In this document: piece after piece, positions 257 through 30,289 of the stretch
Numbering within the stretch: position 1 is the stretch's first letter
Layout of the letters: the number at the start of each line of letters is the position of its first letter
Virus record (IMG/VR): IMGVR_UViG_3300042516_002937
Span: 1-35,290 of that record
Strand: one strand, 5' to 3'
Length of the DNA stretch: 35,290 nt
Source: a virus
Made by a program: the position numbers and the translations under genes
The notes under the pieces: generated by a model
The model's input: the letters and a program-made list of their open reading frames with translations, nothing else
What the model was told of the DNA's origin: nothing
The model's database searches: none

Positions 257-518
257 CTATCACTGCGAGTGCGATCCGCACGGAGACAACGCGCGCTGCG
301 ACCGGCCATGCGCTAGGCCCCGCCATGTCAGCGCCGCCGAGGCCGCCGCCATTGTCGCCAAGGCGCGGCGGATGAATGAGCGGCCGAAGCCCAGCCCGGA
401 GGACATGGCCAAAGCCATCGAAGCCCTGCGGATGCTCGCGTCCCGCACGCGCAGCGTTGAGGTGATGGAACGGCTGGCGAGGGTGGCGGCGTGGATAGAG
501 GGGGAAAGTGCGCGATGA
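240..518 (+). CDS. Hypothetical protein (92 aa) with Cys-rich N-terminus
   Basis: This protein of unknown function starts at ATG 240; an in-frame ATG at 249 is an alternative start. The first 27 residues contain Cys and His (HCECDPHG and RCDRPCARP), which could bind a metal ion; this is inference. The rest is a charged helical region (AAEAAAIVAKARRM, then PEDMAKAIEALRMLASR). It ends at TGA 516-518 and overlaps the next gene by 4 nt (ATGA). Position in the operon suggests an accessory or regulatory role before the HTH and integrase genes. Confidence 0.55.
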   Translation: MRRMGSYHCECDPHGDNARCDRPCARPRHVSAAEAAAIVAKARRMNERPKPSPEDMAKAIEALRMLASRTRSVEVMERLARVAAWIEGESAR

Positions 519-832
519 CTAACTGTGCCGGCCCTCTACGCCTTCGCCCGGCTGCTGTGGCGCTAATGCTGGGCGTCTCAGCCCGCAAGGTCCAAGAGCT
601 ATGCCAGCGCGGCGCCCTGCCGGCCGCTCGCATCGGTCGTGTCTGGACTATCGCGCCCAAGGATGTGCAAGAGTACCTGCGCCGTAACGGAAATAGCCCG
701 CAGCCGTGCCATCCAACCTCTATCGCCGTGGCGATACCTGGTGGGCGCGCGTCCAGATTTCTGGACGCGACCACCGCCAAAGCCTACGCACAACTGATCA
801 GCGGGAAGCGAAGCGGCGCCTCAAGTCGCTGA
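515..832 (+). CDS. Excisionase-like helix-turn-helix protein (105 aa)
   Basis: A MerR/excisionase-type winged HTH (HTH_17-like) spans about residues 9-51: a helix beginning LRPAAVALMLGVSARKVQ, a turn, then LCQRGALPAARIGRVWTIAPKDVQEYL. Proteins of this kind next to an integrase usually act as recombination directionality factors or small regulators. The start is ATG 515 because it forms an ATGA overlap with the upstream stop and has a GA-rich stretch (agagggggaaag) just upstream. The last 42 codons overlap the integrase gene by 127 nt; that tail is low complexity and may not be conserved. Family assignment is fairly sure; function as Xis is inferred from position. Confidence 0.7.
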   Translation: MTNCAGPLRLRPAAVALMLGVSARKVQELCQRGALPAARIGRVWTIAPKDVQEYLRRNGNSPQPCHPTSIAVAIPGGRASRFLDATTAKAYAQLISGKRSGASSR

Positions 833-1755
833 TAGATAATGCCGGCCGCCTGCGCGCCGGCATCCCGCAGGAAACAGACGGCCCGGTGTGGGAAGAGGCT
901 GTTGTGCGGTGGTCCGATCTGCATATGGGCGACCTGCGCGAGCGAACACAGGATCGTTACCGGACCAGCCTCGCTAAGCTGAACGCCCATTTTGCCAGCC
1001 GTCCGGTCGCCTCAATCACAGCCGCGTGCGTCAACGCCTATGCGGTCACCCGCATGAAGGGTGGGGTTAGTTCGGCTACCGTCCGGCGCGACCTAACGGT
1101 GGCGTCTAGGGTCATGCGGGTGGCCAAGCGCGCCGGCTGGATCAGCGCAAACCCGGTGCCTGACGAGGCCAGCGAGCTGGAAGAACGGCGCGAGCCGATC
1201 CACCCCGTCAGGCTGCGGCACCTTGCCACTGTGTTAAGGGCGGCGCCGGCAGGCTTTGGTCGGCTGATCCGGTTCTGCGCCTTGACCGGGTGCCGCCAGG
1301 AAGAGGCGGCTGGGCTGACCGTAGGTGCCGTGGACCTAGCTCGCGGCCGCGTGACCTTTGCCCACACCAAGACCCGCAGCCCGCGCGTGATCGCTCTGCG
1401 GCCTGGCGCCGTTCGGCTGCTGCGCGGCATGAACCTCGGCACAGACCCCGGCACACACGTCTTCACCAGCGGGCGCACGGGCGAGCGGTTCAATAACGTG
1501 CCGGGCCAGTTCCGGGCGCTGGTGGCACGTCTCGATGTGCCGCATTTCAGGTTTCACGACATGCGCCACACCTTCGGTATTCGGTGGCTACAGGCCGGGG
1601 GTGACATCTATGACCTGTCGCGCTACCTCGGCCACAGCAGCGTCAAGACCACCGAGGGATACCTCAAATGGCTGGCGCTGCCGCTACACGACCCCGGCAC
1701 AAAAGCCGGCACAGCGCGGAAGGCCGGCACACGGAACCACCCCGCAAGACGTTGA
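706..1755 (+). CDS. int: Tyrosine-type site-specific integrase (349 aa)
   Basis: It catalyses phage integration and excision. Layout: N-terminal Arm-like beta region (MPSNLYRRGDTWWARVQI), SAM-like core-binding domain about 60-150, catalytic domain about 165-325. Visible catalytic residues are R197 (LTGCRQEE), probable K222 (HTKTR), H284 and R287 (HDMRH), H310 (LGHSS) and nucleophile Y319 (EGYLKWL). The start is GTG at 706; the downstream sequence matches usual integrase N-termini. The last about 20 residues (PGTKAGTARKAGT) are encoded by DNA carrying three CCGGCACA motifs, probably arm-binding sites for this same enzyme. The gene ends 13 nt before a tRNA-Thr fragment on the same strand, the presumed att core. 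Confidence 0.93.
   Translation: MPSNLYRRGDTWWARVQISGRDHRQSLRTTDQREAKRRLKSLIDNAGRLRAGIPQETDGPVWEEAVVRWSDLHMGDLRERTQDRYRTSLAKLNAHFASRPVASITAACVNAYAVTRMKGGVSSATVRRDLTVASRVMRVAKRAGWISANPVPDEASELEERREPIHPVRLRHLATVLRAAPAGFGRLIRFCALTGCRQEEAAGLTVGAVDLARGRVTFAHTKTRSPRVIALRPGAVRLLRGMNLGTDPGTHVFTSGRTGERFNNVPGQFRALVARLDVPHFRFHDMRHTFGIRWLQAGGDIYDLSRYLGHSSVKTTEGYLKWLALPLHDPGTKAGTARKAGTRNHPARR
1691..1713 (+). repeat. Left copy of 23-bp direct repeat (P-arm, candidate integrase arm sites)
   Basis: The 23 bases are identical to 1911-1933 and contain two CCGGCACA units (1694-1701 and 1706-1713); a third unit lies at 1724-1731. All lie inside the 3' end of int. Three units here and three on the other side of the tRNA-like core in the same orientation suggest arm-type sites bound by the integrase N-terminal domain. 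Binding is inferred. Confidence 0.7.
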
Positions 1756-1768
1756 AAATACTAACTAA

Positions 1769-1808
1769 GCCGGGTTAGCACAGCGGTAGTGCAGCGGTTT
1801 TGTAAACC
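1769..1808 (+). other. attP: Candidate attP core: 5' half of a tRNA-Thr(UGU) gene
   Basis: The sequence begins with a complete tRNA 5' acceptor strand (GCCGGGT, 1769-1775), a D-arm with pairing GCAC (1778-1781) and GTGC (1789-1792), and an anticodon arm with loop TTTGTAA and anticodon TGT at 1801-1803. Pairing fails at 1809-1810, and no T-arm or 3' acceptor strand follows. It is therefore a tRNA 5' half, not a tRNA gene. It lies 13 nt after int, between two sets of arm-like repeats, which fits an att core shared with a host tRNA-Thr gene. After integration, this 5' half would be joined to the host 3' half directly downstream of int. Confidence 0.72.
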
Positions 1809-1900
1809 CATTCCGCACATCCCGCAAAACCGCAGAACCCAGCCAATCCTATGAAAAGACGGCGCTTTTCGGAAGCGCAGGAAGCGCAACAACCGCAGAG

Positions 1901-1933
1901 CCGGCACACCACCCCGGCACAAAAGCCGGCACA
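1901..1933 (+). repeat. Right cluster of three CCGGCACA motifs, including second 23-bp repeat (P'-arm)
   Basis: CCGGCACA occurs at 1901-1908, 1914-1921 and 1926-1933; bases 1911-1933 are identical to 1691-1713. Spacing of 12-13 bp places successive motifs about one helical turn apart. Together with the left cluster this brackets the tRNA-derived core. The cluster sits between the core and the terminator of the late operon. Confidence 0.68.
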
Positions 1934-1963
1934 AAAAAGCCCCGCCAGCCGAGGCTAGCGAGG
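1933..1963 (-). terminator. Rho-independent terminator of the leftward late operon
   Basis: On the minus strand, CCTCGCTAGCC (1963-1953) pairs with GGCTGGCGGGG (1950-1940), allowing two G-T pairs, with a very short loop, followed directly by GC and six T (1938-1933). It lies 10-40 nt after the endolysin stop, so it ends the long structural/lysis transcript before it reaches attP and int. Confidence 0.8.
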
Positions 1964-1972
1964 CGGCAATTA

Positions 1973-26463: not shown

Positions 26464-28617
26464 TCATGGCGTTTCCCCCTGTTTTTGGCGTCTCATTTCC
26501 GAGACTGAGGAGAGATTGACGACGAAAGCCTTGCGGGGATGGCCGCGCCTCGGACCCTCCCGGACCTCCACGCTGACGGTGCCGGACTTGATCCAAGCGG
26601 CCAGGATGGCGTCGGCCTGGGCGTCGGTGAGGCCGTGCTTTTCAGTCAGGATGCGTCCGCCCCAATCGTCGCGGGTCTGCTTGGCGACAGCCCAAGCGTG
26701 CCCGCCAGGCGTGCCCGCGTGCATGATGTCCAACGCGGCGATGCAGTCGGTCATGGACAGCCCGGCGAAGGGGCTCGGCGGCGCCCAGGGGAGGCAGGCG
26801 GCGACTTCCTCCCCATTGGCCAGCGGGTAGCCTGCCAGCCGCCACCACTCGGCTTCCTGGGCGATGGCGTAGTTCGACTTCGCCCCATCAATCCTAAAGT
26901 GCCGGCGCCGATGTTCGGGCGGGATGCCGAACCGCTCGGCGTCTGCCTCGGACATGCTGGTCAGGGTCAGCAGGACGCGAACGGCGCCTGTGATGGCGCT
27001 GGCGCCTCTGAGGCGGTCCATGTCGCCGGGTGCGTTGTTGCCCTTGCGGTCATGGTGCAGCAGCAGCACCGCGATATTGAGCCGCTTGGCGAGGCCCCGG
27101 AATGCCGCCACCACCGCCCGCATGGCGGTGTTGTCGTTCTCTTCGGCGTTGTGCAGCTCGGCCAGCGGGTCGCAGACCAGCACGTCCGCGCCGCTCTCCC
27201 GGCACAGCGCCTCTAGGGCTTCCATTGCCGCGGTCGGCGTGATGTGCCCGGTGTCCGGGTGCCGTTCGAAGAGGGTGCCGATGCTCTCCGGGCCGCACCG
27301 GATGACTTGGCCCGCAACGTCTGCCGGCGTCCTGCCGGACGCGCGGAGGGCGGCGCTGTAGCGGCGGCGCTGTTCCAGCTCGTCGTCTTCGACGTTGTAG
27401 TTAACCACCCGCATCGCGCCGGTCGGGCGGAACTCGCCAACGGCTTGGCCGGTGGCCAGCGCGATGGTCCAGCAGACCACCAGCGAAGACTTACCGCCCG
27501 ATCCCTGACCGCTGAGCGCCGAGACTGCCCCGCGCATGAGGTAGCCAGGCGCCAGCCAGGGGCGCTTCGGGATGGCGTCTTCGGTCCATTCCTCGGCGTC
27601 GATCCAGATTGCGGGCTTCGCTGCTTTCGGTGTCCCCGGTGTCCCCGGAGCCCCAATGGCGTCGCTGATGATCTCCCCCGTCTCCGGGTCATAGGTGAGG
27701 CCGGCCAGTGTGGCGGCGGTGCTGGCCTCGGGCGCCTGCGGCGCGATGCCGAAGCCTCGGATGGCGCCGGCCTGGATGCGGCCCAGCGTATAGCGAACCT
27801 TCGCCCGAAACTCAGGCTCGCCCCTGCCGGCGCGGGAGAAGTCCACCTTGGCGGCGTATTGCGGCCACGCAGCCTCGAAAAGCTCGGCCTCGTCCGGCAG
27901 GCGCCCCAGGCGGTCCCGGAGGTCCCGGCAGACGGCGAGGATGGTGTCTCGCATGTATTGCTCGCGGCCGTCCGTGACGCGCTCGGCTGCCGGCAGGCCA
28001 AGCGGCCCGGCGGCCTGCACCCGGACCACCTCGCCGGGCTGGCCTGGGAGCTGCGGGGCGTCGCCGCAGATCAGGTCCACCAGCCACGCCGGGCAGTCGG
28101 CAACCGGCGTCTCTTCCGGGTGTGCGTCCACATCCCAAGCGTATTCCCGCCCGTTGGCGTGGACGGACGGCGTGGCGACGATGAAGCCGCCATCGCCGCG
28201 GACATCCATGCCGGGCCGGACGGACTTGCGGGTCGGGACGTAGCGGCCTGGGTGCAGCAGCACGACATGCACGCCGCCGCCCGGCGTGAACTGGCGCACG
28301 GACTGCGGCAGCCCCCGTGCGTCCAGTTCCGCCAGGGTTTCGAGGCCCCCGGAGGCGGCGTCAAAATCGAGGACGATGGTGGCGCTCCGCCCGCCTTGGA
28401 TCAGCCCGACGCCGAAGGTCGGGTTATCCGCAAACCACGCAATGATCTGCGCGTGGTCGGCCGGCAGCGTTTGGAACCTGGCCCAGCGTTCAGCCGGGAT
28501 TTTCTCGCCGCGTCGGACAGGCACCACGGACCACCCGAGCGAGGCGTAGAACAGCGCCCACTCAAGCGGCGTCTGCGGGCTTCGGCGCAGCGGTGGCGGC
28601 AGCGGCTCGCTCATCAT
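26464..28617 (-). CDS. Bifunctional primase-polymerase / RecA-fold helicase (717 aa)
   Basis: The N-terminal AEP prim-pol domain (about 15-185) has VLDFDA with the DxD metal site at 84-86, GGGVHVV (about 113) and MDVRGDGGFIVATPSVH. A linker carries a PriCT-like helical part. The C-terminal ATPase domain has Walker A GQGSGGKSS at 370-378, Walker B VLVCDP at 479-484 and the sensor HHDRKG at 521-526, then a helical/winged end. Such fusions prime and unwind phage DNA at the fork. ATG 28617 overlaps the stop of a 23-aa ORF. It is the last gene of the early leftward operon; the adjacent repeats may be its origin. Confidence 0.9.
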   Translation of the reverse strand: MMSEPLPPPLRRSPQTPLEWALFYASLGWSVVPVRRGEKIPAERWARFQTLPADHAQIIAWFADNPTFGVGLIQGGRSATIVLDFDAASGGLETLAELDARGLPQSVRQFTPGGGVHVVLLHPGRYVPTRKSVRPGMDVRGDGGFIVATPSVHANGREYAWDVDAHPEETPVADCPAWLVDLICGDAPQLPGQPGEVVRVQAAGPLGLPAAERVTDGREQYMRDTILAVCRDLRDRLGRLPDEAELFEAAWPQYAAKVDFSRAGRGEPEFRAKVRYTLGRIQAGAIRGFGIAPQAPEASTAATLAGLTYDPETGEIISDAIGAPGTPGTPKAAKPAIWIDAEEWTEDAIPKRPWLAPGYLMRGAVSALSGQGSGGKSSLVVCWTIALATGQAVGEFRPTGAMRVVNYNVEDDELEQRRRYSAALRASGRTPADVAGQVIRCGPESIGTLFERHPDTGHITPTAAMEALEALCRESGADVLVCDPLAELHNAEENDNTAMRAVVAAFRGLAKRLNIAVLLLHHDRKGNNAPGDMDRLRGASAITGAVRVLLTLTSMSEADAERFGIPPEHRRRHFRIDGAKSNYAIAQEAEWWRLAGYPLANGEEVAACLPWAPPSPFAGLSMTDCIAALDIMHAGTPGGHAWAVAKQTRDDWGGRILTEKHGLTDAQADAILAAWIKSGTVSVEVREGPRRGHPRKAFVVNLSSVSEMRRQKQGETP

Positions 28618-28685
28618 GCGGCCCCCGCCACACGAAGCCGTGCCTTGCCTATCGTTACGTCCTCCCGCTTTATCTCGTCCGCCAT
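28614..28685 (-). CDS. Tiny ORF (23 aa) before the primase-helicase gene
   Basis: ATG 28685 follows a G-rich site (GGGGGATGAC) and its TGA overlaps the primase ATG (ATGATGA). The product begins MADEIKREDVTIGKARLRVA. Charge pattern and coupling fit a real mini-protein or a leader peptide that couples translation. No family known; low confidence. Confidence 0.4.
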   Translation of the reverse strand: MADEIKREDVTIGKARLRVAGAA

Positions 28686-28717
28686 GTCATCCCCCGTTTT
28701 GGCGGTTTGGCTGGTGT

Positions 28718-28758
28718 GGCGGGGTGCGTCCGGCCTGCGAAACTGAGCGCACCCCGCC
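28718..28758 (-). other. 11-bp inverted repeat between SSB-like gene and primase leader
   Basis: GGCGGGGTGCG (28718-28728) and CGCACCCCGCC (28748-28758) are perfect complements separated by 19 nt. There is no T-run after it on the minus strand, so it is not a usual terminator. It may be an mRNA processing or stability element between the two genes. Confidence 0.5.
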
Positions 28759-28764
28759 GGCTCC

Positions 28765-29481
28765 TCAGAACGGCAAGTCTGCTGCGGCCTGGGCCTTCGG
28801 CGCGGGCGGCGGGACGTGGTTCGGAGGAGGCGCAGACGGCGCGGGTGCGGCGGCCACTGCGGGCTGGCTACCGGCGGCCGGGGGCGGCACGGCGCGGTCG
28901 CCAAGCGCGGCCGGGCGGTCCACCCACTGCGCGATGGTGAAAACTGGCGCGTAGAACTTCGAAGACCCGCGCGGCGTCTGCACCTCGACCACCCGCGTCG
29001 TGATGTTGACCACCGGGACCTGGCCGGCGGCGGCTTCTGGGGCCGCGCAGAAGGCGGTCCAGCACTCTTCGACGCCGCCCATCACGGTCTTTGCCGAGCT
29101 GCCGAAGAAGCGCGGTTCGCCGTCGCCGAAGGTCTTGGCCGACATGACCTTGATGCGAAAGGACGGCGAGAAAGCCGGCTTGTCCTTGCCGTTGTCGTCC
29201 TTGACCGTCTCAATCGGCCTCGGCGGGAACGGCTGGCCCATCGGCACCAGCATGAACACGGGCGGCGAAGCGATCTTGGAATAGCCGACATGGAGGCTGC
29301 CGAAGTCCATCAGCAGGCTTTGCGCCTTGAAGGGCTCCGTCTCTTGGTTTTCGAAGCGCCCGCCCACGTTCACGCGGTTGACGGTCTTCCAGAAGCCGGA
29401 CCGCGCGTCGAACTGGATGCGGCCAAGAAACTCGGTGTCGGCGCTGGCGCCGCTTTCTGATCCTGGGATGCCGAAGGCCAT
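28765..29481 (-). CDS. Putative single-stranded DNA-binding replication protein (238 aa)
   Basis: ATG 29481 has GAGGAAAG upstream. The folded part (about 1-190) has the beta-rich text LGRIQFDARSGFWKTVNRVN, ETEPFKAQSLLMDFGSLHVG, FSPSFRIKVMSAKTFGDGEP RFFGSSAKTV, QVPVVNITTRVVEVQTPRGS (given in pieces) and FYAPVFTIAQWVDRP. The last 50 residues are Pro/Ala-rich and finish in ADLPF, like the D-x-x-P-F tip through which SSB proteins recruit partners. The neighbours are a nuclease, a resolvase and a primase. I infer an SSB-type role; the OB fold itself is not proven by motif. Confidence 0.6.
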   Translation of the reverse strand: MAFGIPGSESGASADTEFLGRIQFDARSGFWKTVNRVNVGGRFENQETEPFKAQSLLMDFGSLHVGYSKIASPPVFMLVPMGQPFPPRPIETVKDDNGKDKPAFSPSFRIKVMSAKTFGDGEPRFFGSSAKTVMGGVEECWTAFCAAPEAAAGQVPVVNITTRVVEVQTPRGSSKFYAPVFTIAQWVDRPAALGDRAVPPPAAGSQPAVAAAPAPSAPPPNHVPPPAPKAQAAADLPF

Positions 29482-29539: not shown

Positions 29540-30289
29540 TCAGAGCCCGTAGGTTTCCCGCACCAGGGCGCGGGTTGTGGGGTCCGAGAAATAGAAACTC
29601 TCGGTATCGGGGACGACGATGGCGGCGAGTTCGTGCGGGTCATTGCTGACCGACAGAAACCGCTCCATGCGCTTGGCGATGTTGGTGATGGCGGCAATCT
29701 GCTCGGCCGCGTTGTCGAGCCGATAGACGCCGATCTTCGCGGGCGTGCAGTAGGCAACGCGCGCCTCGCGGTTGGTGTTGTGGACGTACAGCGCGACCTG
29801 GCGCGCGTGCGCGGTGCTGATTTCGCTGTTCAGGCGAAGCTGCGTCTTGATGTCGAGCGTCAGCCCGTGCGCGGTCCATCCCAAGTCAGCGAACCCCAGG
29901 AAGGGCACCGGCACATCCGGCAGCGTGACCTCGATGCGCTTCTGCACCTCGTCCGGGATGCCGTACTGCCGCAGCTCGGCTAGCCCCGTAGCGACGATGC
30001 TGGGCAGGGCTTCGCGTTCCTTGGCGCGCTTCGGATCGCCGGATAGCGCGGTGAGTTGGTCGAACTGCTGAACGGCGATCTCCTGGCACTCGGCCAGTTC
30101 GGCGGCCGGGTTCAGCAGCCCATGCACGATGCCGCTTTCTGCCGCCGTACCGCGATGCGCTGCGCAGCCGACCGGGCCGCGGCGCTTCAGCAGCTTTTCC
30201 ATGACAAAGGCCGCCGGCTGCGCGGCAAACAGGTTGATCGTGCTGGCCGACAGGTGGCCGATGCCGTGGCGGGCGAAGGCGTTGGTCAT
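29540..30289 (-). CDS. PD-(D/E)XK nuclease, Cas4/RecB-like (249 aa)
   Basis: The start ATG 30289 overlaps the RuvC-like stop (ATGA). N-terminus: GHLSASTINLFAAQPAAFVM EKLL, as in the PDDEXK_1 group (LSASxIxxFxxCP). The active site shows VPFLGFADLGWTAHGLTLDI K, with D in GFADL and D-I-K in LTLDIKT, followed by RQVALYV. It lacks an obvious Cys cluster for iron-sulfur binding. It is probably a recombination-type exonuclease working with the SSB-like protein and the resolvase. Confidence 0.8.
   Translation of the reverse strand: MTNAFARHGIGHLSASTINLFAAQPAAFVMEKLLKRRGPVGCAAHRGTAAESGIVHGLLNPAAELAECQEIAVQQFDQLTALSGDPKRAKEREALPSIVATGLAELRQYGIPDEVQKRIEVTLPDVPVPFLGFADLGWTAHGLTLDIKTQLRLNSEISTAHARQVALYVHNTNREARVAYCTPAKIGVYRLDNAAEQIAAITNIAKRMERFLSVSNDPHELAAIVVPDTESFYFSDPTTRALVRETYGL

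Follow-up and report, generated by a model that had tools for sequence, protein, structure and literature searches.

The DNA between positions 1694 and 1933 of the window, by which we mean the whole 35,290-bp stretch analysed, a virus record without terminal repeats, is very probably the attP of a lambda-type (heterobivalent) tyrosine integrase, in which repeats of CCGGCACA would serve as Int arm sites and a tRNA-Thr gene would be the target. What comparison with relatives shows, at the level of sequence, is how the sites are laid out, that they are conserved as DNA, that left and right arms co-vary and how the junctions of integrated prophages are built; the binding of Int, the point of crossover and the role of a further cluster inside the int gene are what we infer. 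Our joint reading, which we favour with moderate confidence, is that attP reaches about 260-450 bp upstream of the core into int, where a third Int-binding cluster, repeatedly gained and lost, would occupy two segments of the catalytic domain, and where the DNA site would dictate whether the protein reads GT, AQ/AH or RH. The features of the region are collected in Table 1.

Table 1. Features in and around the putative attP, with positions in the window.
Feature	Position	Strand	Basis
ORF with excisionase-type HTH_17 domain, candidate xis	491..832 (ORF bounds)	+	PF12728 5.6e-13; phrog_1840/66 excisionase
int, tyrosine integrase, 349 aa	706..1755	+	PF00589 E=7.5e-18; phrog_1 integrase 3.8e-56
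Internal pair TCGGCACA/CCGGCACA, 12 bp apart, in catalytic-domain codons (NLGTDPGTHVF); proposed distal third arm cluster	1436..1455	+	sequence and family enrichment
Putative left arm pair, CCGGCACAAAAGCCGGCACA, in final int codons	1694..1713	+	exact match; pairs also in family
Putative third left arm copy	1724..1731	+	exact match; kept in L003
Candidate IHF-like site, weak, 1 mismatch, between left arm and core	1745..1757	-	consensus match
Putative attP core, 5′ half of tRNA-Thr(TGT), base 1 to anticodon stem	1769..1808	+	exact 40-mer in 4 genomes
Predicted 7-bp overlap at the anticodon loop (TTTGTAA), flanked by inverted core-type GGT/ACC half sites	1799..1805	+	sequence
Tandem GGAAGCGCA GGAAGCGCA adjoining right arm; candidate accessory (Xis?) site	1871..1888	+	sequence
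Putative right arm copy 1	1901..1908	+	exact match
Putative right arm pair, 20-mer identical to left pair	1914..1933	+	same in L003 except A-run indel after pair
Terminator-like hairpin of converging endolysin gene	1938..1964	-	stem kept in L003 with changed bases

The int gene overlaps the candidate xis ORF, and the endolysin gene converges on it. Its product consists of an N-terminal domain of beta-sheet and helix, a core-binding domain, a catalytic domain and a disordered tail of 18 amino acids. In an AF2 model (pLDDT 87 overall, but about 40 in the tail, residues 332-349, which is predicted to be disordered), the N-terminal domain is made up of a three-stranded sheet and a helix (E5-8, E11-18, E21-26 and H32-50), and the best fold match of the model found with Foldseek is full-length lambda Int (1z1b). 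By its modelled fold the N-terminal domain appears to be of the arm-binding type; it also has a weak match to DUF6538 that falls below the cut-off of that family. The catalytic residues R197, H284, R287, H310 and Y319 are invariant in an alignment of 31 sequences, so the R-H-R-H-Y set of tyrosine recombinases is present.

CCGGCACA occurs at 1694, 1706 and 1724 and again at 1901, 1914 and 1926, always on the plus strand and exactly where the first-pass annotation had placed it, and such repeated putative arm sites on both sides of a core mark the lambda-type class. The identical 23-bp blocks that it had described at 1691-1713 and 1911-1933 are real, lie 220 bp apart and form part of a longer repeat of 34 nt with 91% identity. 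A genome-wide count of the motif, which it had proposed as a check, yielded 12 copies in the window, a number that none of the shuffles attained (expectation 2.6, sd 1.4). Leaving aside the copy inside int that is discussed below, the remaining copies at 524 (minus), 23146 (minus), 27199 (plus), 29908 (plus) and 32868 (minus) are all single and compatible with background, and the one at 29908 had rightly been called isolated.

Between the two sets of repeats lies the tRNA-derived core, which had likewise been recognised at 1769-1808, though not as a 5′ half. This 40-mer of tRNA-Thr(TGT) is found base for base in four bacterial genomes, two of Rhodovarius and two MAGs (one Acetobacteraceae, one Rhodospirillales), and the identity to these genomes ends at both edges of the 40-mer. 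When the phage 5′ half is joined to a host 3′ half, ARAGORN recognises a complete tRNA-Thr and, therefore, the phage supplies the 5′ half. A tRNA half that ends at the anticodon stem-loop, with a complete tRNA rebuilt at one junction, places the site among anticodon-loop tRNA integrations. The inverted GGT/ACC around the anticodon loop has the shape expected of core-type sites, and a GGT-N7-ACC core is also present in relatives. Known integrases of the anticodon-loop sublocation (Williams 2002; Islander) share the anticodon stem-loop core and the use of several tRNA identities within one family, which we also observed here; they differ in that here the 5′ half comes from the phage, which is the rarer arrangement, with 159 islands carrying a 5′ tRNA fragment versus 3760 carrying a 3′ fragment in the Islander survey (PMC4383910). 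In this 5′-half layout the host promoter is displaced from the rebuilt tRNA, and a consensus scan of positions 1600-2050 found no sigma-70 promoter ahead of it. We also considered tRNA-dependent lysogeny, in which a short core does not rebuild the tRNA and the phage encodes a replacement (PMC10865867), and rejected it, as the 40-bp core rebuilds the tRNA and the window holds no tRNA gene. The orientation of the tRNA core relative to int varies in the family (L006, L016-L018, L021 and L022 versus the window, L007, L020 and L023), and either orientation is what a near-symmetric anticodon stem would allow.

About 70 related integrases were gathered by protein and DNA searches, and their hosts, where known, have so far mostly been alphaproteobacterial. 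In the sequences of this family the spacing, orientation and location of the putative arms hold. The closest relative, L003, whose integrase has 91% amino-acid identity to that of the window, retains all arm copies on both sides with a single change within the motifs, a synonymous one (CCC to CCT before GGCAC); the DNA from the core to the right arm is only 84% identical between the two. GGCACA pairs recur in relatives at the int 3′ end and past the core, and in the 630 bp from the end of the int domain the family loci hold 56 pairs on the int strand, 51 of them spaced by 12 bp, and none on the opposite strand. Among non-redundant loci fetched by protein, the left-arm region carries a GGCACA pair in 18 of 46, compared with 2.2% of draws of random 170-nt windows from the same loci, a control in which the draws include the arms themselves. 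When viral contigs were scanned by DNA only, for CGGCACAAAARNCGGCACA, 45 were found, of which 29 have an integrase of the family nearby on the same strand, none has one on the opposite strand and 16 are without one nearby. A degenerate pair lacking the AAAA spacer was discarded as a collection-wide marker, being mostly background (135 of 141 places on viral contigs have no integrase), and CGGCACA in a paper on Brucella GI-2 turned out to be an unrelated PCR primer. In some members, among them the Asaia relatives L004 and L012-L014, we could not recognise a pair at the 3′ end of int.

In protein terms the left pair reads G-T, A-Q or R-H, unless it is located past the stop codon (L007, L020, L065), and its reading frame changes at least nine times on the family tree. 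Because the frames differ and the pairs can follow the stop codon, it is the DNA that is conserved and not the protein tail, and the same observations rule out selection on the int tail at the protein level. The proposal of the first-pass annotation that the tail is shaped by its own binding sites is borne out in so far as DNA is kept over protein in a disordered tail, but the arrangement is not new, since lambda also has arm sites in its final int codons. Many integrases without GGCACA have another pair with 12-bp spacing at the same place, namely ATCCGGG (L006), CCGTAGCA (L017, L038), GTGTAGCA (L022), CGTCATAA (L039), CCCCACA (L047), TGACACA (L052), GGCCACA (L063), CAGCACA (L073) and ATATRCA (L074), and in loci with an uninterrupted attP (L063, L073, L074, L084, L087) the phage's variant motif is found again on the right side. 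Such co-variation of left and right motifs between phages would be expected if the members share an arm-binding domain whose specificity drifts, and together with L003, the layout across the family and the ends of prophages it supports the original reading of the repeats as integrase arm sites.

The prophage ends were read in relatives. In Rhodovarius crocodyli (G001) and in G290, the pairs at the int end adjoin a complete tRNA-Ser(TGA), and those at the far end, about 86 kb (G001) and 25 kb (G290) away, adjoin the displaced 5′ half of the same tRNA. No prophage of the window phage at tRNA-Thr was found, the junctions being read only in these more distant relatives. We examined a displaced 5′ half of tRNA-Thr(TGT) in the MAG G003 (L028, G003:C56:9129-9168) as a candidate for it and rejected it as a different element without GGCACA, which suggests that different elements may use tRNA-Thr(TGT) as a target and displace its 5′ half. 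Elsewhere, G072 looks like a case of serial integration at one site: a tandem remnant on G072:C1 at about 974.2-974.6 kb (L191, L200), made up of a degraded int 3′ end, a degenerate left pair, a 5′ tRNA-Ser half and a right pair, suggests serial integrations at one tRNA gene. On G003:C77, at about 2.9-5.6 kb (L016, L192), a displaced fragment of tRNA-Ser(GCT) is accompanied by a right-arm pair at a distance of only about 1.2 kb upstream of the L016 integrase. The left array of this integrase contains five copies of GGCACA, and the locus is possibly a minimal element or a remnant of about 2.3 kb.

Further candidate features lie close to the arms. The IHF-like site is not significant by itself, as the window has 4 such matches versus 4.9 expected, and its consensus bases are the same in L003. 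The tandem GGAAGCGCA repeat is kept in L003 except for its first two bases, while the DNA before the repeat diverges. The T-tract of the endolysin hairpin abuts or overlaps the A-run of the right arm.

The copy of CCGGCACA at 1448-1455 had also been taken for an isolated one, and no cluster other than those of attP had been noticed; however, it pairs with TCGGCACA at 1436, and a third cluster thus exists inside int. Internal pairs or triples, defined as GGCACA copies 10-14 bp apart in the int coding region and at least 60 nt before the domain end, occur in 16 of 63 non-redundant integrases versus 0.23 in synonymous shuffles, and GGCACA tops all 4096 hexamers for internal pairs. Since the DNA pattern itself had served to retrieve some of the 63 loci, the test was repeated on protein-fetched loci only, in which internal pairs were seen in 11 of 47 versus 0.15 expected when synonymous codons were shuffled (at most 2 genes in any of 1000 shuffles), with GGCACA again ranking first among hexamers. 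The internal sites map to two stretches of the protein, at about residues 236-249 and 275-276 in the numbering of the window's integrase, at or in the segments that in the model connect helices 233-240 and 265-274, and helices 265-274 and 284-296. The same DNA is read as GT-GT, SAQ-SAQ (also AQ/AH) or RH in different members; between the window and L003 the second copy is shifted by 1 nt, turning GTHV into AQHV with GGCACA kept. The presence of an internal pair changes at least 13 times on the family tree, and the exact pair is absent from about three quarters of the family and is, therefore, not essential to the system. It is found in 14 of 39 integrases with GGCACA arms versus none of 13 with other arms (Fisher p = 0.011, a value not corrected for phylogeny and including pattern-fetched loci). 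Internal pairs of a phage's own motif were searched for in variant-arm phages, with a single weak, mismatched match (L006, 14 bp apart). On balance, we consider it rather likely that the 1436/1448 cluster is an Int-binding site, which may act as an arm site in intasome assembly or directionality, or in Int-dependent control of int.

In the mechanism that we propose, neighbouring Int protomers, spaced by 12 bp, would occupy the direct repeats of GGCACA with their N-terminal domains, their catalytic domains would bind the GGT/ACC half sites flanking the anticodon loop (1799-1805), and these half sites would recombine with the host tRNA-Thr(TGT) gene. In the integrated state, the int end would carry the left arms and a rebuilt tRNA with a phage 5′ half and a host 3′ half, and the far end would carry the displaced host 5′ half and the right arms. 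The 1436/1448 pair, as an additional cluster bound by Int, would remain on the int side together with the attachment site there.

It is very improbable that the attP repeats are operators of another protein, such as an Xis/HTH_17 regulator or a phage repressor, and not Int arms. An HTH_17 excisionase-like ORF does overlap int, and direct repeats in attP are a frequent target of recombination directionality factors; however, the repeats stand on either side of the core, share one strand and a fixed 12-bp spacing and go along with the integrase family where phage, host and tRNA target differ, and lambda-type integrases need arm sites, for which no other repeat here qualifies. We give still less credence to the idea that the internal pairs reflect a protein-level preference for GT/AQ residues, or chance. 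Although GGCACA lies within codons there and the dipeptides G-T and A-Q are common, the excess over protein-preserving shuffles, the same DNA in different frames at one protein position and the one-nucleotide move of the motif between the window and L003 all speak against it. That the internal pair is an autoregulatory (roadblock) site for int transcription and no recombination arm deserves more weight, while it too seems unlikely: the pair is part of the transcribed int gene, autoregulation by Int is known from other systems (PMC2951348) and a regulatory role has been proposed for arm-like sites at int starts (PMC3706429), but this pair is 0.7 kb downstream of the int start, its orientation and spacing equal those of the attP arms, and its position shifts between two places in the protein.

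The attP layout as such is already known in kind, because arms in the last int codons and the Int fold are those of lambda and paired repeats are found in mycobacteriophages. Lambda attP/Int shares an int gene that reads toward the core, arms on both sides, the full-length fold match and arm sites in the last int codons (annotated Int site 27814-27854 within int 27812-28882), whereas here the arms are same-strand pairs or triples at 12 bp, the core is a tRNA anticodon arm and an extra cluster lies in catalytic-domain codons. In mycobacteriophages of clusters J and K (Omega/BAKA, CrimD, Pixie) and in L5/Giles, putative arm-repeat pairs flank a tRNA/tmRNA core; attP is 3′ of int in cluster J, and Pixie has two left and three right direct arm repeats plus a sixth site (PMC3203893, PMC3706429). 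Arm motifs likewise co-vary in cluster K, on a small scale (PMC3203893). Their motif is different, however, and in the J phages the extra arm-like sites lie inverted at the start of int and not within catalytic-domain codons. Mx8 and SSV integrases share an overlap of attP with int coding DNA (PMC4383910), but their int extends across attP, whereas here only arm sites lie in int, which integration leaves uncut. Searches of open-access literature found no arm sites inside int catalytic codons, which does not prove their absence, and the internal cluster is what sets this attP apart from known layouts.

For integrases that target tRNA-Ser and tRNA-Thr genes, these results define by sequence an arm-site code of 12-bp paired repeats whose motif varies by phage, with which attP sites become easily recognised and which offers paired natural variants for the study of DNA reading by the N-terminal domain. 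The internal motif of many related phages seems to be an additional site of control or assembly that has so far been overlooked and, if the internal cluster is functional, it would be a clear example of a catalytic domain whose sequence is shaped by the regulatory DNA sites that it uses.
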